Positions 53,664-64,000 of a stretch of 64,000 nt of DNA are shown here, in pieces. Position numbers and translations under genes: made by a program. Numbering within the stretch: position 1 is the first letter of the stretch; every line of letters begins with the position of its first letter. The notes beneath the pieces were generated by a model, which did not search any database, had not been told where the DNA came from, and worked only from the letters and a program-made list of their open reading frames with translations. The stretch comes from a virus. The stretch is taken from positions 25,607-89,606 of the IMG/VR virus record IMGVR_UViG_3300044646_000478, one strand, 5' to 3'.

Positions 53664-53906
53664 CTGTGTTGCACCTCCCCCTCTGTATCTTGTCTATATG
53701 TGACATATGCTTATTGGTATGTATATGGGCCGCCGAATGGGCTTCCCTGTAGAGGTGAGTTACACCCCAAAAGTATTTTTTTTAACCGCCGACGCGAGGG
53801 CATAGCCTCCCCCTTCCTGCCGTCCCCCGCATACTATCATATGTGTCAAGTGTATGCCCTCCTCGTTTGTACCGGGTGGGCTTCTATGGGCCACGGGCAT
53901 TGGATG

Positions 53907-54012
53907 AATCCATGAGAAGCGATCTACGGGCCGCGAATGGGGCTACCCATGCTAGGACATAGGCTAGGGGGTCGGAGGCCCGTGTAGGCCTTCCTGTGGC
54001 TTCCTGTGCATG
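53907..54012. repeat. Dispersed CCATGCTAG element, copy A
   Basis: Core CCCATGCTAGGAC at 53946-53958. Preceded by TCTACGGGCCGCGAATGGG and followed by GGCCCGTGTAGGCC and CCTGTGGC. Shared blocks appear in the same order in copies B, C and D. Confidence 0.75.
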
Positions 54013-54071
54013 GTCCCGTGGATGCCAGCCCCCGTGTCTGGTGGGCCAGCCTGTTCTGTATGGGTCATGGC

Positions 54072-54192
54072 CGTTGGATGAATCGCTGAGAGGCTCTGTA
54101 TGGGCCGCGCCTCGGGGTACCCATGCTAGACCCTTGCCCACCACCTCGGAGGCCGTCCTAGGCCCTCCTGTGGCCTCGGAGGCATGGTCCCC
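54072..54192. repeat. Dispersed CCATGCTAG element, copy B
   Basis: Core CCCATGCTAGACC at 54120-54132, preceded by CTGAGAGGC and TATGGGCCGCGCCTCGGGG, followed by CTAGGCCCTCCTGTGGCCTC. Lies directly past the terminator of the helicase C-terminal gene. Confidence 0.75.
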
Positions 54193-54197
54193 GGAAC

Positions 54198-54230
54198 GAC
54201 AAAGGGCCACCCCGGAAGGTGGCCCTTGTC
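54198..54230 (-). terminator. Hairpin terminator after the helicase C-terminal gene
   Basis: GACAAAGGGCCACC and GGTGGCCCTTGTC form a long stem with one bulged A over a six-base loop. A TAAACG box (54239-54247) lies between the stop codon and this stem. Confidence 0.78.
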
Positions 54231-54254
54231 TCCTGCCCGTTTATCCCGTGACCC

Positions 54255-55292
54255 CTAGAAGGCCGTCACCTCCTCCACCTCATCCTCGGACAGCAGGCCC
54301 GCCTCCACGATGAAGGGCGAGACCCCGGTGATGTTGCGCCCGTAGACGGAGGTGCTGCTGACGAACAGAACGTCCTCGGCGCGGGTCATGGCGACGTATG
54401 CCATGCGGCGCTCCTCCTCAACGTCCTGCGGGGTCTTGGCGAGCGCGTGGGGCAGCAGGCCCTCGCTCATCCCGGCGATGAACACGACCGGCCATTCCAG
54501 CCCCTTGGAGCGGTGGATGCTGAGGATGGTCACGGCGTCGTCCTCGTTCTCGCCCCGGAGGTCGGAGGCCTTGGCGGTCACGCTCTCCTGCTCCACGAAC
54601 CATGCGACGAACGCCGCGAGGTCGTCCCCGAACTCGGCCCCGGAGAGGGCTACGTCCTCCACGATTGCGATGGAGCCGTCGCCGTTGGTCTCGGGGGTCT
54701 CGGTGTCCTCCTCGGCCTGATCGCGCAGCCATGCGGCCACCCCGGAGTCCTCAGCGATGCCGCGCACAATGTCAATCACGGGCACCTTGCCGACCATCTC
54801 ACGGTACTTGCGAATGAGGGCGATGAAGGCGTCCATGTTGTCCTTCTGGCGACGGTTTATACGGGCGTCCTTAAGGCCAAAGAACGGGTCGTTCGGGCAG
54901 GCAGCGTAGGCCTGACGGGCGACACCGGCACCAAGGAACCGCGAGGGCGTGGACAGGGCCGTGGTCAGGGCCTCCTCGTCGGCGTTGCCGACGACCACGC
55001 GCAGGTAAGAGGTGATCGCCTGAGTCTGGTACCGCTTCCAAAACGACGGGGAACCGATGATGCGAAAGGTGAAGCCAGCGCGGGTAAACGCGCTTTCCAG
55101 CGGGCGGGTCTGACGGTTGGTACGGACCAGCACGGCGATGCTCGCGCCGGGGACACCGGCATCGCGCAGGGCCTTGATCTGGGTGGCGATGTTGTCGGCC
55201 TCCTCGCCCTCGTCGTTGTAGTGCGCGTAGTTGATGGGGTCCAGCCCGGTGGCCGGGATGATGAACTCAGGGATATCGGTGGTGGTGTCCAT
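54255..55292 (-). CDS. UvrD/Rep-like helicase, C-terminal subunit (split gene)
   Basis: 345 residues. It carries the second half of an SF1A helicase: ASIAVLVRTNRQTRPLESAF (domain 2A), a region that fits 2B, then motif V (TILSIHRSKGLEWPVVFIAG) and motif VI (EERRMAYVAMTRAEDVLF). It lacks Walker A and DEXX, which are in the neighbouring gene. It has its own promoter, GGAGACC ribosome-binding site and ATG, so it is a separate gene and not a frameshifted tail. The two products presumably assemble into one ATPase. High G+C, unlike the structural genes. Confidence 0.9.
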   Translation of the reverse strand: MDTTTDIPEFIIPATGLDPINYAHYNDEGEEADNIATQIKALRDAGVPGASIAVLVRTNRQTRPLESAFTRAGFTFRIIGSPSFWKRYQTQAITSYLRVVVGNADEEALTTALSTPSRFLGAGVARQAYAACPNDPFFGLKDARINRRQKDNMDAFIALIRKYREMVGKVPVIDIVRGIAEDSGVAAWLRDQAEEDTETPETNGDGSIAIVEDVALSGAEFGDDLAAFVAWFVEQESVTAKASDLRGENEDDAVTILSIHRSKGLEWPVVFIAGMSEGLLPHALAKTPQDVEEERRMAYVAMTRAEDVLFVSSTSVYGRNITGVSPFIVEAGLLSEDEVEEVTAF

Positions 55293-55317
55293 GTGGTCTC
55301 CTTAGTCGTGTAGAGGC

Positions 55318-55346
55318 ATCGTACAGGAAGGGCCGGGAGGATGCAA
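55318..55346 (-). promoter_or_regulatory. Promoter of the helicase C-terminal gene, overlapping a hairpin
   Basis: Minus-strand TTGCAT (55341-55346) and TACGAT (55318-55323), spaced 17 with TG just before the -10. The -35 lies in the loop of a GGGCCGGGAGG/CCTCCCGGCCC hairpin (55330-55360) that could end transcription from the first helicase gene. The two functions share one sequence. Confidence 0.68.
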
Positions 55347-55373
55347 GCCCTCCCGGCCCCTCGTTTATCCGGG

Positions 55374-56453
55374 CTACCCGGCCAGCACCTCCACCGGGAC
55401 GCCCTCAGCCTCGTCGTGGTCACGGTGCGGGGCGACCTCCTTGCCCAGCCGCTCCTTGTTGTGGGCGATGAGGCGGGCCGCAGCCTCCACGATGGGGCGA
55501 CGGGAGCGGTAGTTGGTACCAAGGTTCACGACCGTCACCTCGCCCTTAGTCTGGGCGATGAACTCGGCAGGGACCGCGCCCCGGAACGAGTAGATGCTCT
55601 GGTCGTCGTCCCCGACCATCGTGAGGTTGGAGGTCTGCGATGCCAGCACCCGCATGAGGCCGAACTGCACCGGGTTGCAGTCCTGCGCCTCGTCCACGAA
55701 CACCCACTTGACGCGGCCGATCACGGCCTCGCGCACCTTGTCGTCCTTGGCGGCAGCGAGACCCCGGATGCCCATGCATGAGAAGGTGACGCTAATCACG
55801 CCGCCCTGCCGACGCTTCCAGCCCCGGTCGCGGCCCTTACCCTGAACCGCCCAACCCTCGTCCAGCAGGCGCTCCATGATCTTGTAAACGGTGCCCACCA
55901 CCGGGTCGGCATCGGGCAGGGAGAGGTACTGCTCGGCGGTGAGGTTCTGGTCCATGATCTTGGACACGGCCTTGGCGATCTTGCCAGCCTTGCGGGGCAT
56001 GTCCACGCCGTACTCGGAGCCGCCCCACTCGCTGTCGTTGGCGAGGTTGTGGCCGAACGGGCAGTAGCGCGAGGGAGCCTCTACGATGCCGCGCACCATG
56101 CCTGTCACCTGACTCGGGGACAGCAGGGAGCCGCCGTACTTGCCAGCGTTTATCCGCTTACCCTTCTGCTGGCGGTAGAACTTGTACCCCAGCGAGTGCA
56201 GGGTGCCAACGTGGGCCAGCCGCTCCACGACCTCATCACCGACAAGGGTGGCAAGGCGGGACTTCATCTCCTCGGCGGCAGCCGTGGTGAAGGTAGCCAG
56301 CACGATGCTCTCGGGGGCCTCGCCCTCGGAGATGAGGCGGGCGACACGGTGAACCAGCACGCGGGTCTTACCGGAACCAGCACCAGCGTTAATGACCAGC
56401 GGCCCCTCGCCGTGGTCAATCGCCGTCTGCTGCTCGGGACTCATGGTAGCCAT
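55374..56453 (-). CDS. UvrD/Rep-like helicase, N-terminal subunit (split gene)
   Basis: 359 residues from MATMSPEQQ, chosen because GAGGAGGAAAG precedes this ATG; the longer ORF has no signal. Walker A AGAGSGKTRVLVHRV is near residue 20, motif Ia LATFTTAAAEEMKSRL, motif II VFVDEAQDCN, motif III MVGDDDQSIYSFRGA, motif IV LGTNYRSRRPIV. It ends after EGVPVEVLAG, exactly where domain 2A should continue; the rest is in the next gene. Such enzymes unwind DNA 3' to 5' in repair or replication. High G+C. Confidence 0.92.
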   Translation of the reverse strand: MATMSPEQQTAIDHGEGPLVINAGAGSGKTRVLVHRVARLISEGEAPESIVLATFTTAAAEEMKSRLATLVGDEVVERLAHVGTLHSLGYKFYRQQKGKRINAGKYGGSLLSPSQVTGMVRGIVEAPSRYCPFGHNLANDSEWGGSEYGVDMPRKAGKIAKAVSKIMDQNLTAEQYLSLPDADPVVGTVYKIMERLLDEGWAVQGKGRDRGWKRRQGGVISVTFSCMGIRGLAAAKDDKVREAVIGRVKWVFVDEAQDCNPVQFGLMRVLASQTSNLTMVGDDDQSIYSFRGAVPAEFIAQTKGEVTVVNLGTNYRSRRPIVEAAARLIAHNKERLGKEVAPHRDHDEAEGVPVEVLAG

Positions 56454-56497
56454 GCTCTTTCCTCCTCGTTCGGCGGGGCCGTTCCCCGTGTTCACGC

Positions 56498-56527
56498 ATC
56501 GTACCACAGGTGGTTCTGAGATTGCAA
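56498..56527 (-). promoter_or_regulatory. Promoter of the helicase N-terminal gene
   Basis: Minus-strand TTGCAA (56522-56527) and TACGAT (56498-56503), spacing 18, with a TAAACG box just upstream (56533-56541). The -10 is preceded by TGG, an extended form seen at the other promoters of this block. Confidence 0.68.
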
Positions 56528-57130
56528 GTCCTCGTTTAGACGGGGTGCCGCATTGGCGTTTGGGCGCGAGTAGCACACCTTGTCTGAATCCACAAGTACC
56601 CCTTGTGCGTACTTGCTACAAAGTCGGTCCCGAGATTGTAAAGTCCCTGCTCCGAGCAGGCACTTTCACCAGAGCCGTTCTACGGGCCTTGGAGGGATTC
56701 CCGAGGGTCGTTACACCTGAGACCTGTAAAGTCCCTGCTCGTAGCGACTTTCGGGGGTTGGCACGGAGGCCCGAGAATCGCCTGAGAGCGATTGTGGTGA
56801 GACTTTGTGCGAGATTGACACAAGCAAGTTGAGGTCGCTTGTGCGGATTCAGCACAATCTCAGTTGCTTGCACTCGCAAGGACTCAGTTGCACTTGCAAG
56901 TACCTTGTAGCACTTTGTCACAAGAATCCCGTTAAAGCCGTTGGGTTTCTTGGGTATAAAAGCCTGAGATGTTGTTGGGATTCTTGTGCTGATTTCGCAC
57001 AATGTTGTTGCAGTAGCAAGTACCTTGTTCAGTTTCGCACAAGGTCACGCTTGTAGGTATCCGCACAATGTAGTTGCAAGTGCAAGCACAGCGTTTACAC
57101 GCGGTCCTCGGGGCCTTACACGATTGGGGA
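56528..57130. repeat. Iteron-like non-coding region upstream of the helicase genes
   Basis: About 600 bases without a convincing gene. Six copies of TTGTGCG or its complement CGCACAA occur (56603, 56805, 56839, 56996, 57036, 57062). The 16-base TGTAAAGTCCCTGCTC occurs twice (56637 and 56725). GCAAGTACCTTGT also occurs twice, along with several TTGCAAG/CTTGCA words. Three of the heptamers point one way and then three the other. The pattern fits a replication origin or a regulator-binding array. Confidence 0.7.
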
Positions 57131-57139
57131 GAGAATGTC

Positions 57140-57290
57140 AAGGGCTACGGGCCTCAGATTTGACGCCCTGAGAGGCGATATACGGGCCTCGGAGGGCCTA
57201 CCCCATGCTAGGACATTCGGGAAGCATGGAAGGCCCGTGTGTGGCCTCCTGTGGCCTCCTAGGGGGTATCGGGGTATCCGGGCCTGTCCA
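57140..57290. repeat. Dispersed CCATGCTAG element, copy C
   Basis: Core CCCATGCTAGGAC at 57202-57214, preceded by CTGAGAGGCGATATACGGGC, followed by GGCCCGTGTGTGGCCTCCTG and CTAGGGGG. Directly past the terminator at 57295-57320. Confidence 0.75.
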
Positions 57291-57294
57291 TCAA

Positions 57295-57320
57295 CGAAAG
57301 AGGGGGCCTTGCGGCCCCCT
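57295..57320 (-). terminator. GCAA-tetraloop terminator
   Basis: Minus-strand GGGGGCC-GCAA-GGCCCCC followed by TCTTTC. The same hairpin recurs almost unchanged at 58271-58295. A box variant (TACAAACG) lies between it and the stop codon upstream. Confidence 0.85.
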
Positions 57321-57352
57321 CCCTGTCCTGCTCCTCGTTTGTACGCGGTGCC

Positions 57353-57718
57353 CTAGACCGCTGCCTGCTCGGCCCGCTGCTCACGGGCGAGGTCGTACAG
57401 AGCATTGGCGGCTGCGGTCTTGGTTGTGTAGAGGCCGACCTTCTCGCCACCACGGTCGTAGGCGTGCCACTTGCCGTTCGCCCGATAGACCTCGCCCAGA
57501 TACATCTCGCTGCGCCAGCGGTAGTAGCCAACCGCGTGCGGATTCCGCATCTTAACGACCTCGCGGCCCTCGGTCACGATGCCGTCCTCCCATGCGTAGA
57601 TGCCCTGCGATGCGTAGATGGTGCTGACCAGAGGCTCATGGGCGCTAACCTCACGATGCCCCCATCGGATGTTCTCGTTGGGGACATACTCCTCGTTCTG
57701 GATGGTCTGGATTCTCAT
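57353..57718 (-). CDS. Hypothetical protein, 121 residues
   Basis: 121 residues, soluble. Tyr/Trp-rich middle (GYYRWRSEMYLGEVYRANGK) and an Ala-rich helical C-terminus. The sequence GKWHAYDRGGEKVGLYTTKT reads like a small DNA- or RNA-binding beta sheet, but no family is recognised. AACAGGAGAAT precedes the ATG. Its own promoter (extended -10 TGCTAGACT near 57750) and terminator make it a one-gene unit. Confidence 0.75.
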   Translation of the reverse strand: MRIQTIQNEEYVPNENIRWGHREVSAHEPLVSTIYASQGIYAWEDGIVTEGREVVKMRNPHAVGYYRWRSEMYLGEVYRANGKWHAYDRGGEKVGLYTTKTAAANALYDLAREQRAEQAAV

Positions 57719-57776
57719 GGGATTCTCCTGTTCGTTGGCTGCTGAGGCAGTCTAGCACGTTTGTACCGCGTGCGCC

Positions 57777-58067
57777 CTAGCCCTCCTGCGCCTCCATGTA
57801 GTCAAAGATTGCGTGAACGCCCTCCTTGGTGAACCAGATCACGGGGTCGCCGGGGTCGTAGTGGTCGTCCTCGTCCACGAACATCAGGCCCTTGGCGACC
57901 AGAGACCCGATCACCCCATCGGCCTCATGCTTGTTTCCGATGATGCGCTGGGCACCAGAGAGGTCAAGGTTGGAGTAGTTGTCGCTCAGTTGCCCCTCCC
58001 GGTCGTCGTAGTTGAGGGCGGCGGTCAAAAGGATTGCCTCGCGCTCGGTGATGTTGCTCATGGTCAT
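57777..58067 (-). CDS. Hypothetical protein, 96 residues
   Basis: Start MTMSNITERE at 58067 follows CAGGGAGC; the longer ORF start is unsupported. The 96 residues are helical with an acidic middle (FVDEDDHYDPGDPVIW) and could be a small winged-helix-like protein (TEREAILLTAALNY ... ADGVIGSLVAKGLMFV). No family recognised. Single-gene unit preceded by TGATACGCT and followed by TACAAACG. Confidence 0.74.
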   Translation of the reverse strand: MTMSNITEREAILLTAALNYDDREGQLSDNYSNLDLSGAQRIIGNKHEADGVIGSLVAKGLMFVDEDDHYDPGDPVIWFTKEGVHAIFDYMEAQEG

Positions 58068-58117
58068 GCTCCCTGTTCGTTGGCTGCCAGAGCAGCGTAT
58101 CACAGATTCCAGACGTA

Positions 58118-58260
58118 GGCCCGATTCGCTGTGAAGCCCTGAGAGGCGTTCTACGGGCCTCGGATGCCTTCCCCCATGCTAGACCCTTCCCAGACCATGC
58201 GAGGCCCTTCTAGGCCCCTTAGAATCGCTCCTAGGCCCTACCGGGGGTCACGACCCCATC
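58118..58260. repeat. Dispersed CCATGCTAG element, copy D
   Basis: Core CCCATGCTAGACC at 58173-58185, preceded by CTGAGAGGCGTTCTACGGGC, followed by GAGGCCCTTCTAGGCCCC and CTAGGCCCTACC. Directly past the terminator at 58271-58295. Confidence 0.75.
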
Positions 58261-58270
58261 CCCGGATGCA

Positions 58271-58295
58271 GAAAGGGGGCCTTGCGGCCCCCTCC
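58271..58295 (-). terminator. GCAA-tetraloop terminator
   Basis: Minus-strand GGGGGCC-GCAA-GGCCCCC followed by TTTCT. A TAAACG box lies between it and the stop codon upstream (58297). Confidence 0.85.
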
Positions 58296-58322
58296 CCGTT
58301 TACACGCCCTGTACCTCCCGGC

Positions 58323-58505
58323 CTAGTAGTCGTCCAGCACCTCGTCCAGAAGGTCGCGCAGGCGCTCCACCTCATCCCCGGTCATGGCGACCGACACCTG
58401 CGGGCCGTCCAGCGTGGGGAAGGCGTGGAGGGTGATGTTGGCATCCCCGTCGCCCTTGTCAGTCACGAACACCACGGGGCCGTGGTAGGTCTCAATGCTG
58501 CTCAT
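58323..58505 (-). CDS. Hypothetical protein, 60 residues
   Basis: 60 residues, beta-strand N-terminus (GPVVFVTDKGDGDANITLHA) and a helical C-terminus (DEVERLRDLLDEVLDDY). No family recognised. The ATG follows the TAAACG box of the upstream gene directly (TAAACGATG), so the pair is coupled. Ends in a repeated terminator. Confidence 0.72.
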   Translation of the reverse strand: MSSIETYHGPVVFVTDKGDGDANITLHAFPTLDGPQVSVAMTGDEVERLRDLLDEVLDDY

Positions 58506-58508
58506 CGT

Positions 58509-58712
58509 TTACACGCTCCTGTTCTCGTTGTTGAGGTGATGCTTGCCGCCACACTTGGGGCAAGCCCGGACGAACGTGAGTCGCCCGGTGCTGTTCTCCC
58601 TGAGCCAGAGGGTGCCCTCCTTCTCGGGCTTGCCGACGTACATGCTCATCCCCCGCCCGGTGACGGTGTTGCCACCGGGGCAGGGAGCAGAGATGAATGA
58701 GGTGGCCCCCAT
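58509..58712 (-). CDS. Small zinc-ribbon-like protein, 67 residues
   Basis: 67 residues with ISAPCPGG near the start and ACPKCGGKHH near the end; the single early Cys and the C-x2-C with His suggest a metal site. No family recognised. Coupled to its neighbours at both ends through TAAACGATG junctions. Possibly a nucleic-acid-binding small protein. Confidence 0.68.
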   Translation of the reverse strand: MGATSFISAPCPGGNTVTGRGMSMYVGKPEKEGTLWLRENSTGRLTFVRACPKCGGKHHLNNENRSV

Positions 58713-58715
58713 CGT

Positions 58716-59018
58716 TTACACCCCCTTCTCGTCGTTGGGAAGGAACATGGCCTCGCGCTTGGCAGCCTTGGCGAACGACGACCCGCTGATGGAGTACCTG
58801 CGGGGCCGGGACGGGGCGGCGATCAGAGCCGCGTGGAACTCGGTCGCCAGCGACTCGGCCTCGTAGGCGCTCGCCAGAGCAACGTCGGCCTCCAACCCCT
58901 CGGGCAGAGCGTCGGCCTGCCGGTGGTACTCCTCGGCACGGGCTTCCAGCGCGTCCACGATGAACGCGGCCTCACCGATGCAGAGGTTACGGATGGAGAC
59001 TCGGTACGGATTACCCAT
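58716..59018 (-). CDS. Hypothetical helical protein, 100 residues
   Basis: Start MGNPYRVSIR at 59018 follows AAAGGACAGC; the longer ORF start lies across a promoter. It is mainly helical and Ala-rich (AAFIVDALEARAEEYHRQAD), with a basic SRPRRYSISGSSF near the end. No family recognised. The gene is first of a three-gene run joined by TAAACG stops. A promoter with TGCTACAAT lies just upstream (near 59050). Confidence 0.73.
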   Translation of the reverse strand: MGNPYRVSIRNLCIGEAAFIVDALEARAEEYHRQADALPEGLEADVALASAYEAESLATEFHAALIAAPSRPRRYSISGSSFAKAAKREAMFLPNDEKGV

Positions 59019-59136
59019 GATGCTGTCCTTTCGGTTGGTGTTGGGGCATTGTAGCACGCCCCTCAGACGGATGCCCTCCCCGTTTATCCGGGGAGGGGAG
59101 GCAGGGCAGGGCGGTGGCCCGCCCTGCCCCTGTCGT

Positions 59137-59490
59137 TTAGACCCCCTGCTCGGTGGTCTCCTCGTCCTGCGGCCCCTCCTCGTACTCGCGGGCGGCAGCG
59201 AGCAGCACCTCGGCAATCTCGCGGGCCTGCTGGGCGGTGAACTTGGCGTGAACGTATCCCTTCTCCTGCCCCTCGGAGGTTGCCAGCGTCCCCAGCACCA
59301 TGACCGTCACCTCACCGAACTTTCCGCCAGCGATCTGGTAGTCCTGCCGGTGAGTCGTGAGGGAGTCGTTTCGCTCATGGGTGAATGAGGTGCCGTCGTT
59401 GGTGACGTAGGTGTACGGGCCGACGCCCTCGCCCTGCACCGTGTAGGTGGTGTAGTCGTCGTTCTCGTAGTTGCTGATGTTGATGCTCAC
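59137..59490 (-). CDS. Hypothetical protein, 117 residues
   Basis: GTG start (MSINISNYEN) chosen because GAGGAG lies nine bases ahead; the longer ORF is unsupported. N-terminal 75 residues are beta-rich (DYTTYTVQGEGVGPYTYVT), the C-terminus helical and acidic. No family recognised. Stop is a TAAACG box; TGGTACACT lies upstream as a candidate -10. Confidence 0.72.
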   Translation of the reverse strand: MSINISNYENDDYTTYTVQGEGVGPYTYVTNDGTSFTHERNDSLTTHRQDYQIAGGKFGEVTVMVLGTLATSEGQEKGYVHAKFTAQQAREIAEVLLAAAREYEEGPQDEETTEQGV

Positions 59491-59623
59491 GATGAAACTC
59501 CTCGGTTCAGTTGCTTGCTGAGGGGAAGTGTACCACACCCCTCGGACGGATGCCCTGCCCGTTTATTCGGGGAGGGGCGAGGGAGGGGGAGGGGAGGTGG
59601 CCCCTCCCCCTCCGGGGTGGTGA

Positions 59624-60385
59624 CTAGGCCCCGTGGGGAGCCGTCACCTTGGGCTTGCGGGTCTTGCGGGCGACCACCTGCATACGCTCGCCGCAGCAGG
59701 GGCAGATCGGCGTGCCAGCCGCTTCCAGCCACTTGGCCGTCATGTTGAGGTTGTAAACGTCCTTGCCCTCACCGCTGGGGTCGCAGCCACGGGTGCCGTC
59801 CTCCTGCGGGGTGCAGCAGGCGACCTTCACCAGACGGGTGGCCTGCGGCTTGTGGACGACGTTCATGCCCTTGTGCGGGTACTCGCCCAGCGACTCGCGC
59901 AGGCGGGCAGTCAGGGCCACGAAACGGTCCCCGGCGTAGGTGGCGGTGGGCTTGCCAGCGAGGCCGATGGTGCGAATCATCTCCACGAACGGACCCTTGT
60001 GGCCGTTCTTGTTGCCGTCAATGGCGTGGACAATCTCATGGGCGAGAACGTCCAGCACACCCGGCTCGCGCTCGTCGTTGCCCAGCGTGTCCTTGCGGCC
60101 CGTCTTGGGGCCGATAGCGTGGGCAAGGGCGGGCGACACGGTGATGTGCCGCACGTTGCCCTCGGGCGAGGAAGTCTCATGGTAGGCCATGCCGACCACG
60201 GAACCCTTGCCGCTCTTACCCAGCCACGCCCGCTTGTGCGAAAAGGACAGGTGCGGGGCGACGGTGTAGCCCTCGGGCATCGGGAAGCCAGCCTCGGCCA
60301 GAATGGTGAGCAGGCCGTCAGTTGCGGCGGCGATGTAGGACTCAGGCGTGTCGTGGACCTGAGCGTGAATCGGTGAGTAACCCAT
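59624..60385 (-). CDS. SprT-like zinc metallopeptidase
   Basis: 253 residues. VLAHEIVHAIDGNKNGHKGP near residue 115 holds HExxH and a downstream His; a C-terminal zinc ribbon is formed by the CC of VACCTPQ and CPCCGE. This is the SprT/Spartan layout. Spartan-type enzymes cut proteins cross-linked to DNA; a role in phage DNA metabolism is inferred. Promoter TTGACA-17-TTTAAT and ribosome-binding site AAGGAGAC make it the best-signposted gene of the block. High G+C. Confidence 0.87.
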   Translation of the reverse strand: MGYSPIHAQVHDTPESYIAAATDGLLTILAEAGFPMPEGYTVAPHLSFSHKRAWLGKSGKGSVVGMAYHETSSPEGNVRHITVSPALAHAIGPKTGRKDTLGNDEREPGVLDVLAHEIVHAIDGNKNGHKGPFVEMIRTIGLAGKPTATYAGDRFVALTARLRESLGEYPHKGMNVVHKPQATRLVKVACCTPQEDGTRGCDPSGEGKDVYNLNMTAKWLEAAGTPICPCCGERMQVVARKTRKPKVTAPHGA

Positions 60386-60418
60386 GATGCTGTCTCCTTG
60401 GTTGGTTGCTGTACGGGG

Positions 60419-60447
60419 ATTAAACCAGATGGTGTGAGCCGTGTCAA
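60419..60447 (-). promoter_or_regulatory. Strong sigma70 promoter of the SprT-like gene
   Basis: Minus-strand TTGACA (60442-60447) and TTTAAT (60419-60424), spaced exactly 17. A TAAACG box lies about 20 bases upstream (60467-60475). Confidence 0.82.
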
Positions 60448-60555
60448 GTGCCCGGTGTGGGCGGCTCGTTTATCCCTGCCCCGGCAGTATGACAGATGCT
60501 CCGGGGGAATACAAGCCCTCCCCGAATCCTCGCTCGGGGAGGGCGTTTAGATGCC

Positions 60556-60795
60556 CTAGAGGTCGGCCTCGTACTCATCGGCCAGCCGGTCCAGCGTGTA
60601 GGCCTGATACTCGGCCTCCCGGTGGGTCTCCATCCACTCACGCTCGCGCTTGGGGTCGTAAGCGAACCCATCCTCATCCCCGAATCCTGCGGCGATATGC
60701 AAGGCATCAGCGGCCTTCTCACGCAGAGCCTCGGCTCCTGCCCTCAGAACCTCCACCCTCTCCTGCTGAATCATCCGGCTTGTTGCAACACCCAT
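60556..60795 (-). CDS. Hypothetical helical protein, 79 residues
   Basis: Start MGVATSRMIQ at 60795 after CAGGGAGACAACG. Almost entirely helical and charged (ERVEVLRAGAEALREKAADA; HREAEYQAYTLDRLADEY). No family recognised. Stop TAG followed by a TAAACG box six bases on. Upstream promoter at 60823-60852. Confidence 0.72.
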   Translation of the reverse strand: MGVATSRMIQQERVEVLRAGAEALREKAADALHIAAGFGDEDGFAYDPKREREWMETHREAEYQAYTLDRLADEYEADL

Positions 60796-60822
60796 CGTTG
60801 TCTCCCTGTTCGTTGTTGGGGG

Positions 60823-60852
60823 ACCGTAGCACAGATTGGGGAGAGGGCACAA
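60823..60852 (-). promoter_or_regulatory. Promoter, extended -10 type
   Basis: Minus-strand TTGTGC (60847-60852) and TGCTACGGT with -10 TACGGT (60823-60828), spacing 18. A TAAACG box supplies the stop codon of the gene upstream (60858-60866). Confidence 0.6.
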
Positions 60853-60860
60853 GGCCCCGT

Positions 60861-61046
60861 TTATCCTTCCACCCACGACCACACCTCGGGGTCGGTAGGA
60901 TGCTGCTCGGGGAGGGTGGCAAGGCGCGGCCATGCAGTCATGCCTTCCTGCTCCATGATGGTGAAGGCCGCGTTTACACGGGCGGTGATGTTGGTGAACT
61001 GCCCCTCACGGAGCCACTCCATGTACCGCTGCTCATCGCTCAACAT
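60861..61046 (-). CDS. Hypothetical protein, 61 residues
   Basis: Start MLSDEQRYMEW at 61046 after GGGGGCTTGG; its ATG lies 14 bases inside the preceding gene. 61 residues, helical with several Trp. It ends VWSWVEG with the stop in a TAAACG box. No family recognised. Confidence 0.68.
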   Translation of the reverse strand: MLSDEQRYMEWLREGQFTNITARVNAAFTIMEQEGMTAWPRLATLPEQHPTDPEVWSWVEG

Positions 61047-61212
61047 GACCAAGCCCCCTAGTAAGAATCCACGCATCCAGAGCATCCTGAACAAACGATG
61101 TGATGCGCTCCTGCACCGTATCAAAGTCCACGGTGCCCTCCTGCTTGTCCCACTCAGCGGCGTCCAGCGAAACCTGAACGGAGATTGGCAGAGAGATGTT
61201 GCCGCTTACCAT
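61033..61212 (-). CDS. Hypothetical small protein, 59 residues
   Basis: ATG at 61212 to TGA at 61033, with GGAGGAAG well placed. The 59 residues start MVSGNISLPISVQVSLDAAE and continue as a helix (DTVQERITSFVQDALDAW). ATG overlaps the stop of the gene before it (ATGGTAA) and the 3' end overlaps the next gene by 14 bases, a compact coupled trio. No family recognised; the fold pattern (strand then helix) resembles small ribbon-helix-helix-like proteins (speculative). Confidence 0.72.
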   Translation of the reverse strand: MVSGNISLPISVQVSLDAAEWDKQEGTVDFDTVQERITSFVQDALDAWILTRGLGHVER

Positions 61213-61373
61213 GACACTTCCTCCTTGTGCTTACGCTTGCGCGTGTAACGGATGTTTACACGCTCGGGCGCATCCTTGCGCGAGCGCCTGACCTCAATGC
61301 GAACCCGCTGGCGCATACGACGCGCACGCTTAGGCTCAACGAACTTCTCCTCGTCCCGCTCTTGCTCGTACAT
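61206..61373 (-). CDS. Very basic small protein, 55 residues
   Basis: ATG at 61373 to TAA at 61206, with GGAGAT nearby. The 55 residues are packed with Arg and Lys (KRARRMRQRVRIEV, RYTRKRKHK), suggesting binding to nucleic acid. It starts the coupled trio 61373-60861 and lies behind a clear promoter (61437-61464). No family recognised. Confidence 0.68.
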   Translation of the reverse strand: MYEQERDEEKFVEPKRARRMRQRVRIEVRRSRKDAPERVNIRYTRKRKHKEEVSW

Positions 61374-61436
61374 GGTATCTCCTAATAGTTATCTATCTAA
61401 CTAATGAATATCTATCTAACTGCTTGCTGCTCAGAC

Positions 61437-61464
61437 AGCATACCATCTCAGATGAGAGATGCAA
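61437..61464 (-). promoter_or_regulatory. Promoter, extended -10 type
   Basis: Minus-strand TTGCAT (61459-61464) and TATGCT (61437-61442), spacing 16, with TGG before the -10. The TAAACG box that ends the upstream gene lies six bases before the -35. Confidence 0.72.
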
Positions 61465-61472
61465 GGCCTCGT

Positions 61473-61802
61473 TTATTCGCCCTCAATCTCCATACCAATC
61501 GTGAATCCTAGGCTAGCACCAGACTTGGTGTTGTAAACGCCGTCAGGCACCCATCCGCTAACATCGTAGAACGACTCCAACACAGTCCCCTTCACGGATT
61601 CTAGCGAACGGTGAAGGGTAAACCACACTTCACTCTCATGCACCTTGCGCTCAACTAGAAGCCACGGACGCTCCTGCTGCCCAGCAACCTCCAACCGAAC
61701 ATTGTCTGGGTCAATGTGGAAATCCTGATCGTAGTCCTCTAGGATTTCCACAATCACCTTATTGGTGATCTGAACATCGTCAGGGATGCAACTAACACTC
61801 AT
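61473..61802 (-). CDS. Hypothetical protein, 109 residues
   Basis: 109 residues with a helical N-terminus (TNKVIVEILEDYDQD) and a beta-rich body (PWLLVERKVHESEVWFTLHR). No family recognised. ATG follows the stop of its neighbour through TAAACGATG, and its own stop is part of another TAAACG box. G+C content is lower than around 54-60 kb. Confidence 0.73.
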   Translation of the reverse strand: MSVSCIPDDVQITNKVIVEILEDYDQDFHIDPDNVRLEVAGQQERPWLLVERKVHESEVWFTLHRSLESVKGTVLESFYDVSGWVPDGVYNTKSGASLGFTIGMEIEGE

Positions 61803-61805
61803 CGT

Positions 61806-62066
61806 TTAATCCTCCTGTATGATTTCGGCAATATAACCTGCATAGCAGTTAAACTTCTCCTCATCGTTGGCTGATGAAGGAACCTCAACATAACCATCGT
61901 GAACCCAAACATCATGCCCATCTATGCAACCGGGCTGACCGTCAAAGAGCATACGGCAGACCTGATGTGAAGTGCTGCCGTCGTCGTAGAACTGCCACCA
62001 ATCATCAGAGCCAAAGCGGAGGCGATGAAGGGTCACAGTCTCCTGCTCGTACTTCTGGGGAGGCAT
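61806..62066 (-). CDS. Hypothetical protein, 86 residues
   Basis: Start MPPQKYEQE at 62066, two bases past the upstream TAA. 86 residues, acidic and Trp/Tyr-rich (RFGSDDWWQFYDDG; CIDGHDVWVHDGYVEV). No family recognised. Middle member of a three-gene operon; its stop forms a TAAACGATG junction with the next gene. Confidence 0.72.
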   Translation of the reverse strand: MPPQKYEQETVTLHRLRFGSDDWWQFYDDGSTSHQVCRMLFDGQPGCIDGHDVWVHDGYVEVPSSANDEEKFNCYAGYIAEIIQED

Positions 62067-62068
62067 GA

Positions 62069-62446
62069 TTAAACGCCCCACTCAGAAAGGTTGCCATTGG
62101 CACGCTCAGGGACTCGGACACGGTACTCGGGGTAATAGACCTCACCGTTGGTGGTGTCCACGATAGCAACCACTACCCACACACCCTGTGCGTCAGCGTC
62201 CACCACAGAGTCGTAGATAGAGGTGTCGGCGTACTCGGCAGCCTCGTCCCACTCATCCTTGCCGTCGTAGAGAACATCGAAGTCCCCGCCCTTGACGACA
62301 GCGATGAAGCGGTACAGGTTGCCGTCAGAATCCCAGAATCCCGACTGCGGGGAGCCATGACGGGGAGTTCCCCACGCACTCTGAATCCTGTCCATCATCT
62401 CCTCAGCCTGCTCGCGCTGCTCAATCTCTGCATCGGTAATGCTCAT
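62069..62446 (-). CDS. Hypothetical protein, 125 residues
   Basis: Start MSITDAEIEQ at 62446 after AAAGGAGATT; the longer ORF runs over the promoter. The N-terminus is a charged helix (EQREQAEEMMDRIQ), then a beta-rich Asp/Tyr-containing body (LYRFIAVVKGGDFDVLYDGK; VWVVVAIVDTTNGEVYYPE). No family recognised. First gene of its operon. Confidence 0.74.
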   Translation of the reverse strand: MSITDAEIEQREQAEEMMDRIQSAWGTPRHGSPQSGFWDSDGNLYRFIAVVKGGDFDVLYDGKDEWDEAAEYADTSIYDSVVDADAQGVWVVVAIVDTTNGEVYYPEYRVRVPERANGNLSEWGV

Positions 62447-62478
62447 CAGAATCTCCTTTAGTTTGTTGCTGCTTAGAC

Positions 62479-62506
62479 AGCATAGCACCTCAGACCTAAG
62501 ATGCAA
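62479..62506 (-). promoter_or_regulatory. Promoter, extended -10 type
   Basis: Minus-strand TTGCAT (62501-62506) and TATGCT (62479-62484), spacing 16, with TGC before the -10. A TAAACG box that supplies the upstream stop codon lies five bases before the -35 (62512). Confidence 0.74.
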
Positions 62507-62514
62507 GTGCCCGT

Positions 62515-62739
62515 TTATTCGTCGTAGTAGTCGAAACTGTCTGAGACCGGACCTTCCTGCTGTAGCAGGGAGAACACTTCCCACGCCTCGTCCTCGTCCT
62601 CTATGTAGAAAGAAACGTCCCGTAGTCCAAAGCCAGCACCAGAATCGAACTGATAACCCTTAGACTCTCGGATGCCCTCAAAGAAGTCCTGCAACTCGTT
62701 TAGACGCTCAATGGGATATGAAGCAGAAACAACAAACAT
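62515..62739 (-). CDS. Hypothetical acidic protein, 74 residues
   Basis: Start MFVVSASYP fixed by a TAATG overlap with the upstream gene. 74 residues with a strand-helix-strand-helix pattern (ERLNELQDFFEGIRES; VSFYIEDEDEAWEVFSLL) typical of small ferredoxin-like folds. Ends DYYDE with the TAA of a TAAACG box. No family recognised. Confidence 0.73.
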   Translation of the reverse strand: MFVVSASYPIERLNELQDFFEGIRESKGYQFDSGAGFGLRDVSFYIEDEDEAWEVFSLLQQEGPVSDSFDYYDE

Positions 62740-63074
62740 TATCCCTCCCTCCACTCAGGCCCCTCGTCCAGAATGTCCATAACCTGAACATCTCCGGGCT
62801 GGCAATCAATAAGGTCATGCCAAGCCCAACGGTCGGGGCAATCATCTGAGGCATCGGTTGTGATGCGAAGGGTGATGGTGTAAACGCGCATCTCTCTCAC
62901 GTTCAGAACGTAAGCAGGAAACCTCTCACCACAGTCGTAGCACTTGTAGCCACAGACCAGAACCTCACGGTCATGCTCATCAATCTCAACATCATGCCCA
63001 GACTGCGAGGTGACGTTCTCAGACTGACAGTTTACACAACACTCGGGATTATCAACAAAGTTTACGGCACTCAT
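62739..63074 (-). CDS. Zinc-ribbon-like protein, 111 residues
   Basis: 111 residues. The Cys pairs in ECCVNCQSENV and GYKCYDCGERF form a likely zinc ribbon in the first 55 residues. The rest alternates beta strands (MRVYTITLRITTD) and an acidic helix-free end. No family assigned. ATG follows TAAACG directly (TAAACGATG), so it is coupled to the small conserved gene before it. Confidence 0.75.
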   Translation of the reverse strand: MSAVNFVDNPECCVNCQSENVTSQSGHDVEIDEHDREVLVCGYKCYDCGERFPAYVLNVREMRVYTITLRITTDASDDCPDRWAWHDLIDCQPGDVQVMDILDEGPEWREG

Positions 63075-63077
63075 CGT

Positions 63078-63257
63078 TTAACCATCCTGTCGGGGAGTGA
63101 TGTACCCAGCCTCAATCAGAGCCGCAGCCATGCGACCGTAAGAGCCTTGCAGGCTCCATGCCATACCTGTATCCACAAGGTACTGAAAGAGGTCAATGAT
63201 ACCCTCCTCATCCAACTCACCCTGCTCATACTCCATAATCGAACTAACGTAATCCAT
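63078..63257 (-). CDS. Conserved small actinophage protein (DUF7417-like)
   Basis: ATG at 63257 to TAA at 63078, with AAGGAGATAG ahead. The 59 residues read as helix-turn-helix-like: [20 protein letters not shown], then [20 protein letters not shown] and GYITP. A near-identical pattern (EQGEL ... LFQ.LVDTG.AW.LQG.YGR.A..LI..G.I) is very widespread in actinobacteriophage genomes, usually among early genes; its role is unknown. This is one of the best pointers to an actinobacterial host. Confidence 0.82.
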
Positions 63258-63267
63258 TTCTATCTCC

Positions 63268-63348
63268 TTACCTAGTCAGAGAAAACGTAAGACCGGCCAC
63301 TACCCACACGGCCAGAACGCCAACTGCGATTACAATAAAAGTTTCCAT
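63268..63348 (-). CDS. Tiny membrane protein, 26 residues
   Basis: ATG at 63348 after an excellent GAGGAGGG. Only 26 residues, [20 protein letters not shown] followed by TFSLTR: one membrane helix with a short basic tail. The longer ORF through here runs across the promoter and is not used. Lies just before the DUF7417-like gene in the same operon. Function unknown. Confidence 0.62.
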
Positions 63349-63375
63349 CTTGCCCTCCTCGTTGCTTGCCTTGTA

Positions 63376-63404
63376 AGCATAGGGAATATATCTCACTAAT
63401 GCAA
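63376..63404 (-). promoter_or_regulatory. Promoter, sigma70 type
   Basis: Minus-strand TTGCAT (63399-63404) and TATGCT (63376-63381), spacing 17. A TAAACG box lies five bases before the -35 (63410-63415). Confidence 0.74.
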
Positions 63405-63421
63405 CTATTCGTTTATTCAGC

Positions 63422-63637
63422 CTACCACTCAAAGCGAGCGGAAAGAACCTTGTGGTCTGGGAACAAACACCTAACCTGCTCCATCGCTCGGTCCACCATC
63501 TCTGTGATGATTTCACTATCCTCAAGGTTTCCCCAAACATAGTCTAGCGTGTCCTCGTTCTGCTCGGTCAGGCTTGCCTCATAGGTAAAGTTATCGGCAA
63601 TACCATTCTCACTAACCATCTCAACGGTAACAAACAT
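63422..63637 (-). CDS. Hypothetical protein, 71 residues
   Basis: 71 residues, beta then helix (FVTVEMVSENGIADNFTYEA; EIITEMVDRAMEQVRCLF), acidic. No family recognised. Its ATG overlaps the TAA of the upstream gene (TAAATG), so it is coupled. Its TAG stop is followed by a TAAACG box and promoter. Confidence 0.7.
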   Translation of the reverse strand: MFVTVEMVSENGIADNFTYEASLTEQNEDTLDYVWGNLEDSEIITEMVDRAMEQVRCLFPDHKVLSARFEW

Positions 63638-63994
63638 TTAGATGCGCTCCTCGCTCATTGTGTCCTGTCGGATGTTCTCCATCTCCTGTTCGTTGAGCCA
63701 TGCGTAAGCCTCGGCACGACTCTCCTCGTCAGCCGCAGCCTGTCGCAGAATCTCGTTCCACTCCTCGGGGTCGGTGACATAGGACTCAGCATCAATCTCG
63801 TCCCGACGACGCCGATACTCCTCCTCAATCTGAGCCTCAATGATGCCCTGTCGGTACTCAACCCAGAGAGTCAGAGCCTCATCAAGAATGACGAACTGCT
63901 CAATGGTGAGGTCTCCGTTTACAGTCAGGTCGTCCAGACGGTGATAGAGAGCCGTAGCCTTGTCCTGCATAATCATAACATCGTCCTGCATCAT
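63638..63994 (-). CDS. Hypothetical helical protein, 118 residues (start near window end)
   Basis: Helical and strongly charged throughout (EEEYRRRRDEIDAESYV; EESRAEAYAWLNEQEMENI), suggesting a coiled-coil or helical bundle. Several ATGs lie near the N-terminus (MMQDDVMIMQD) and the window ends six bases upstream, so the true start is uncertain. No family recognised. Confidence 0.62.
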   Translation of the reverse strand: MMQDDVMIMQDKATALYHRLDDLTVNGDLTIEQFVILDEALTLWVEYRQGIIEAQIEEEYRRRRDEIDAESYVTDPEEWNEILRQAAADEESRAEAYAWLNEQEMENIRQDTMSEERI

Positions 63995-64000
63995 TGGTCT

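Follow-up and report, generated by a model that had tools for sequence, protein, structure and literature searches.

Several described systems invite comparison with the repeated DNA word that is the subject of this analysis. Cluster A mycobacteriophages carry stoperators, 13-bp GGTGGMTGTCAAG-type sites that are bound by the phage immunity repressor. T4-like cyanophages carry mobile regulatory cassettes (PeSL), in which a promoter overlaps a stem-loop between genes. SPRTN is a DNA-dependent protease that repairs DNA-protein crosslinks; it is not known to have any tie to a dispersed DNA word. Finally, Microbacterium phages of clusters EC, EG, and EI have intergenic repeats, as do clusters K and EF (SAS/ESAS), with lengths of 13-30 bp (PMC7302621).

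How does the present locus compare? The window, the whole 64,000-nucleotide stretch of DNA that was analysed, belongs to an 89.6-kb viral contig. In its major capsid protein, the window phage shares 55% identity with Myrna, a Mycobacterium phage, and with related phages of Mycobacterium and Gordonia, and it is therefore a distant relative of the cluster C actinophages. Positions 53800-64000 form a G+C-rich early block, read from the minus strand, that is also found in two further contigs, G001 and G002. G001 is longer, nearly identical overall, and has an identical (100%) helicase, and in it the block runs about 10 kb further; in G002 the helicase is 72% identical and two other proteins are 67% and 89% identical. 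The block has a G+C content of 50-66%, the rest of the genome one near 38-40%, which is true of both contigs compared. The step from about 38% to 65% is abrupt and falls at the same place in the window (53800-64000) and in a relative (L004:1-13000), the value dropping to about 50% further on. Because the relative has the same jump, a chimeric contig was ruled out as its cause. Two close relatives (L057 and L058; capsid 99% identical) have a giant low-GC gene region upstream of the capsid gene, with a 3249-aa open frame; the stretch covered in them excludes their block.

The block has further features. Its UvrD helicase is encoded by two genes, one for the N and one for the C half (54255-56453), a split shared with the relative L004, and between the halves lie a box, a hairpin with a -35 in its loop, and a ribosome-binding site. 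TTGCACTTGCAAC / ACATTGTGCGGATACC elements recur in a long noncoding region (56577-57341), which is conserved in L004 and may be an origin or control region. Diverged direct repeats of 76-133 nt (GAGGCCCGTA...CTAGCATGGG) occupy noncoding DNA at 53905-54191, 57161-57236, and 58132-58207.

The window contains 48 copies of TAAACG, where 25 are expected, with a concentration in the block. Between 53.8 and 64 kb, the coding (minus) strand carries 22 TAAACG and three TACAAACG, so the roughly twenty boxes counted in the first-pass annotation hold up in outline. The TAA is the stop codon in 8 of the 22, while 10 copies are noncoding and 4 lie inside genes; all three TACAAACG copies are noncoding. Against a curated list of 22 gene ends, drawn from gene calls made in this analysis, a [T/C]AAACG box falls within 25 nt of the stop in 14. 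Boxes had been placed at almost every gene junction; many gene ends do have one, but only about two thirds.

The boxes take up three kinds of position (minus strand throughout, unless stated). (i) They stand ahead of terminator-like hairpins, as had been noticed: examples lie between stop and hairpin at 60544-60549 and between stop and terminator hairpin at 58297-58302 (a GTGTAAACG) and 54238-54243, and at 59134-59139 the box is itself the stop codon, followed by a hairpin. (ii) They join a stop codon to an ATG, again as proposed, at 63075-63080 (TAAACGATG), 61803-61808, 58713-58718, and 58506-58511, the last two being GTGTAAACG. (iii) They precede a TTG -35 by exactly 5 nt, as at 63410-63415 (TTGCAT, 6 nt after a TAG stop), 62512-62517 and 61470-61475 (both stop codons, both TTGCAT), and 60858-60863 (a stop codon, TTGTGC). 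The TACAAACG variants reported after TAG stops are indeed there, at 57758-57765 and, before a terminator hairpin, at 57336-57343; the third copy (53864-53871) is upstream of a TTGACA promoter. The remaining noncoding copies lie upstream of the promoter of a gene for a SprT-like protein (60467-60472; TTGACA, with the 5-nt spacing absent), upstream of promoter-like GGGCAT..TACACT (59560-59565) and GGGCAT..TACAAT (59081-59086), in the long noncoding region with TTGCAC repeats (57092-57097, a GTGTAAACG), between the two halves of the split UvrD helicase (55362-55367), and 5 nt before the TTGCAA -35 of the helicase gene (56533-56538). The nearest gene end to this last box is 814 nt off, so the box is more than a marker of gene ends.

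The spacing to the -35 is sharper than the five to six bases first claimed: [T/C]AAAC[GA]-N5-TTG occurs 9 times in each of G001 and G002, where about 0.7 is expected per offset. Could the box simply be a promoter element, serving early promoters that have a weak TTGYR -35 as an activator site or UP-like site, its other copies being relics? The exact spacing at 9 promoters per genome would fit, as would the fact that promoters with a box mostly have no TTGACA. However, most copies are away from promoters, selection acts on in-gene and antisense copies (described below), and phages of clusters AZ and EH put the word elsewhere in their promoters, which together make this explanation quite improbable.

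In orientation, the first-pass annotation needs correction. It had all boxes pointing one way, but six TAAACG copies between 53.8 and 64 kb are reversed (plus strand). Five are inside genes, at 62881-62886, 61534-61539, 59754-59759 (in the SprT-like gene, and at the same position in the gene of a relative), 55885-55890 (UvrD-N), and 55085-55090 (UvrD-C); the sixth is at a gene end (62070-62075). The in-gene sense copies are at 63916-63921 (TGTAAACG), 62697-62702, 60971-60976 (GTGTAAACG), and 56147-56152, where ATAAACG in UvrD-N uses the rare ATA codon. In noncoding DNA the bias is real, with 23 sense and 4 antisense copies in G001 and 12 and 3 in G002, while inside genes both strands are enriched. 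Boxes at gene ends are also looser (TAAACG only) than sites in genes (GTGTAAACG).

Is the word itself under selection? Maximal-order Markov word scores masked the signal, which emerged when synonymous codons were shuffled within local bins, a procedure that preserves the proteins and local codon use. With this correction, the top 5-mer of the block coding sequence is TAAAC/GTTTA (z 9.9 and 9.6 in the two genomes), the top 6-mer is TAAACG/CGTTTA (z 9.1 and 9.5), and the top 7-mer is TGTAAAC. Within the genes of G001 there are 8 sense and 11 antisense TAAACG, compared to 1.1 and 2.5 in the shuffles, and in G002 there are 5 and 17, compared to 0.7 and 3.9. Rare codons serve to build the word inside genes: GTA makes up about 7% of valine codons but 8 of 13 when asparagine comes next, and AAC follows 3 of 6 ATA codons. 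In the low-GC rest of the window phage genome there is no such word signal. The word is thus a DNA-level signal, here confined to the GC-rich block. Even spacing of the sites, seen in G001 (P 0.002-0.007), is not claimed because it is absent in G002.

Enrichment on both strands after coding correction means that a preference for the TAA stop is rejected, as the first-pass annotation had maintained (0 of 300 synonymous shuffles reach the observed TAAACG counts), and it argues against a signal that acts only in sense RNA. For the same reason, the suggestion of a translation-coupling signal finds no support. Of course, TAA occurs naturally as a stop codon, and GTAAAC can arise from a Val-Asn pair, but the synonymous shuffles, along with the anagram controls given below, reject an origin of the word in base composition, codon usage, or the choice of stop codon, and such an origin can hardly be right.

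The word is found well beyond the window. Its full form is GT(G/T)TAAAC followed by G, of which the TAAACG boxes are local copies. The closest phage homologues of the SprT-like protein led to Emotion and Zeta1847, with 17 and 22 GTGTAAAC, respectively, where 0.1-0.2 are expected per strand. Among coding-corrected 7-mers, GTGTAAAC words take one of the first three ranks in Arthrobacter phages Powerpuff, DrManhattan, and Snek, in Microbacterium phages Floof, Honk, Barnstormer, Mabodamaca, and Zeta1847, in Streptomyces phage Stuff, and in a prophage of Arthrobacter sp. EPSL27, while TTTAAACG and GTTTAAAC are top words in Dinoroseobacter phage R5C and Pseudanabaena phage Pan1. In the 4.2-Mb genome of Arthrobacter sp. 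EPSL27, 18 of 43 GTGTAAAC copies fall within the 31 kb of the prophage, and because of this clustering a host-wide motif was ruled out. A second cluster of 7 GTGTAAAC in that genome (G012:C4:1365980-1384725) is probably another prophage or a phage relic. In Zeta1847 (L062), promoter-like units CTTGCGCGAGTGTTTACACGCGTGTATGAT recur at several places, and their -35/-10 spacer contains the word. In Emotion (L060), GTGAAAC/GTTTCAC is also among the top coding-corrected 7-mers (17, with 2.7 expected) and is possibly a second word.

A word spread over a genome might also mark a site of replication, recombination, or packaging, Chi-like or primase-like, at which SprT would clear away proteins. The spread is genome-wide, structural genes included, in Powerpuff, Stuff, and R5C, and AZ phages show a strand bias. 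In the window phage, however, the word is confined to one block, it is not host-wide, and it is palindromic in Nanhaivirus and so not directional. Such a site therefore seems about as improbable as the promoter element.

What might read the word? The proposed reader is a SprT-like zinc metalloprotease encoded in the block itself (59624-60385, minus strand). The protein has the zinc-binding HExxH motif as HEIVH, aligned in all homologues, and a C-terminal part running PQATRLVKVAC...MTAKWLE. It is 37.6% identical (E 2e-28) to gp54 of Emotion, annotated as SprT-like. A profile match to the SprT family is not independent support, as the profile includes the query family itself, and in Pfam the window protein scores 12.1 bits, below the PF10263 cut-off of 25.6, which only Dismas passes among six phage proteins. 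An AlphaFold model (pLDDT 84) has SPRTN (6mdx/6mdw) as its best PDB matches, though these are weak (E 0.0017, probability 0.80, TM 0.23).

The case for this protein comes from the company the word keeps. Only SprT is clearly common to the window phage and Emotion or Zeta1847, apart from a nucleotide kinase in Emotion, and it is the only protein common to the Arthrobacter and Microbacterium AZ/EH phages, Stuff, and the block, the lineages compared in this way. All 13 tested phage or prophage sequences whose SprT has the C-terminal Q-TR signature have a TAAAC word within their three highest-ranking coding-corrected 8-mers, and none of 7 negatives does. In Dismas, Rollins, Quenya, and AvGardian, the SprT tail reads KSRSGKSIKL or similar rather than KKQ-TRM-KV-C, and the word is absent; FP1, whose SprT tail also has no Q-TR signature, has a single copy. 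Though such negatives are few, they indicate that the word tracks the Q-TR tail and not SprT as such. No SprT match was found in Myrna, Skog, ScoobyDoobyDoo, Shaeky, PhailMary, Strosahl, or BFK20, and these phages carry 0 to 2 GTKTAAAC; with Myrna, Skog, and ScoobyDoobyDoo free of the word, it was ruled out as common to all cluster C-like phages.

Metagenomic sequences give the same picture. At least three sites at 3-fold the anagram expectation are present in 74 of 80 SprT loci and in 0 of 37 capsid-gene control loci, the loci being fragments, many of them closely related to one another. Over the 80 loci there are 228 GTGTAAAC and 338 GTTTAAAC, compared to 18.5 and 14.9 expected from anagrams, and TAAAC is within the top three 8-mers at 22 of 69 SprT loci and 1 of 23 control loci. 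The retrieval patterns included the Q-TR signature, so these loci test the word given Q-TR, not the reverse. Capsid-gene loci were chosen as controls because a scan with DNA polymerase I returned only AZ-like relatives.

There is also a hint within the protein as to the flavour of the word. Among 77 classified sequences, the most informative column for the third base is the residue after a conserved lysine (residue 188 in the window protein): valine or leucine goes with GTG and cysteine or alanine with GTT, 74 of the 77 being concordant, the window phage included. The match amounts to 3-5 independent contrasts on the protease-domain tree, where it is not significant, and therefore it hints, but does not prove, that residue 188 may set the flavour. 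Autoregulation of SprT was considered, as some AZ/EH phages and Mica have sites upstream of the gene. Over 53 loci there is no enrichment: a site precedes 10 of 53 SprT genes and 305 of 2,120 other genes. A sigma factor was set aside, the one region-4-like match being weak, below cut-off, and outside the block.

The word, then, is under DNA-level selection in and between genes, and it co-occurs with the Q-TR SprT across unrelated phages. The explanation we favor, with a probability of roughly 0.58, is that the TAAACG boxes are a recognition word kept by phages with a Q-TR SprT-like protease, the candidate reader. The C-terminal Q-TR domain would bind the word and, at its many sites, anchor the protease to phage DNA. 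Once bound, it might remove or process proteins on that DNA, as SPRTN does, or it might regulate early transcription. In the window phage, the sites are limited to the early block in which the SprT gene lies, where they also form part of gene ends and promoters. The fixed 5 nt to the -35 suggests that the bound protein may contact or time the transcription machinery as well. Points against this explanation are the looser boxes at gene ends, the lack of a general site upstream of SprT genes, the weak match to SPRTN, and the few contrasts behind the residue match. The reader could instead be a linked, unseen partner of SprT.

The main rival is a repressor-type reader, since cluster AZ/EH phages form immune lysogens and their repressor has not been identified (PMC8758107). 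Here a phage repressor rather than SprT would bind the boxes and block transcription at promoters and gene ends. This would suit the sites at gene ends and 5 nt before the -35, their single orientation outside genes, and the placement of the Zeta1847 word in repeated promoter spacers. It does not account for the enrichment of both orientations within genes; no repressor is common to the lineages, only SprT, and no helix-turn-helix repressor was seen among the block proteins. The idea of repressor or activator sites in the first-pass annotation thus survives in that a DNA-bound protein is likely, but the block has no identified repressor, and we consider the repressor unlikely.

A bolder version of the SprT reading, to which we give somewhat less than an even chance on the sequence evidence, is that Q-TR SprT proteins are widespread sequence-addressed proteases. 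Their tail would read GT(G/T)TAAAC, with one residue setting the third base, and phages would seed their genomes with landing sites, even by means of rare codons inside genes, so that the protease stays with their own DNA. If the SprT reading is right, it would supply a first function for SprT-like genes, which are annotated in the genomes of well over a hundred sequenced phages, and it would point towards the regulator that is missing in the temperate cluster AZ/EH phages. It would also describe a protease that is guided to DNA by a sequence code running across coding regions. The open-access full text searched contains no earlier report of the word or of its link to SprT.

Set beside the known systems, the block word is, like the cluster A stoperators, a short, asymmetric site in many copies, mostly in one orientation relative to transcription, at gene ends and promoters. 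It differs from them in sequence (TAAACG / GT[GT]TAAAC, not GGTGGMTGTCAAG-type) and is one-way only outside genes (23 versus 4) and two-way inside, so the boxes were not classed as stoperators; their candidate reader, too, is a putative SprT-like protease and not a repressor. The EC/EG/EI repeats and SAS/ESAS are likewise actinophage repeats, of small intergenic regions and with function not known (PMC7302621), whereas selection on the block word extends into genes, and the word recurs in phages that are unrelated to one another. The promoter overlapping an intergenic stem-loop at 55322-55367 of the window recalls PeSL, which are not tied to a dispersed in-gene word. The protein, finally, resembles SPRTN/Spartan and other SprT-like proteins (PF10263) in being an HExxH protease with a C-terminal zinc-ribbon-like part, but no such dispersed DNA word is known for SPRTN.
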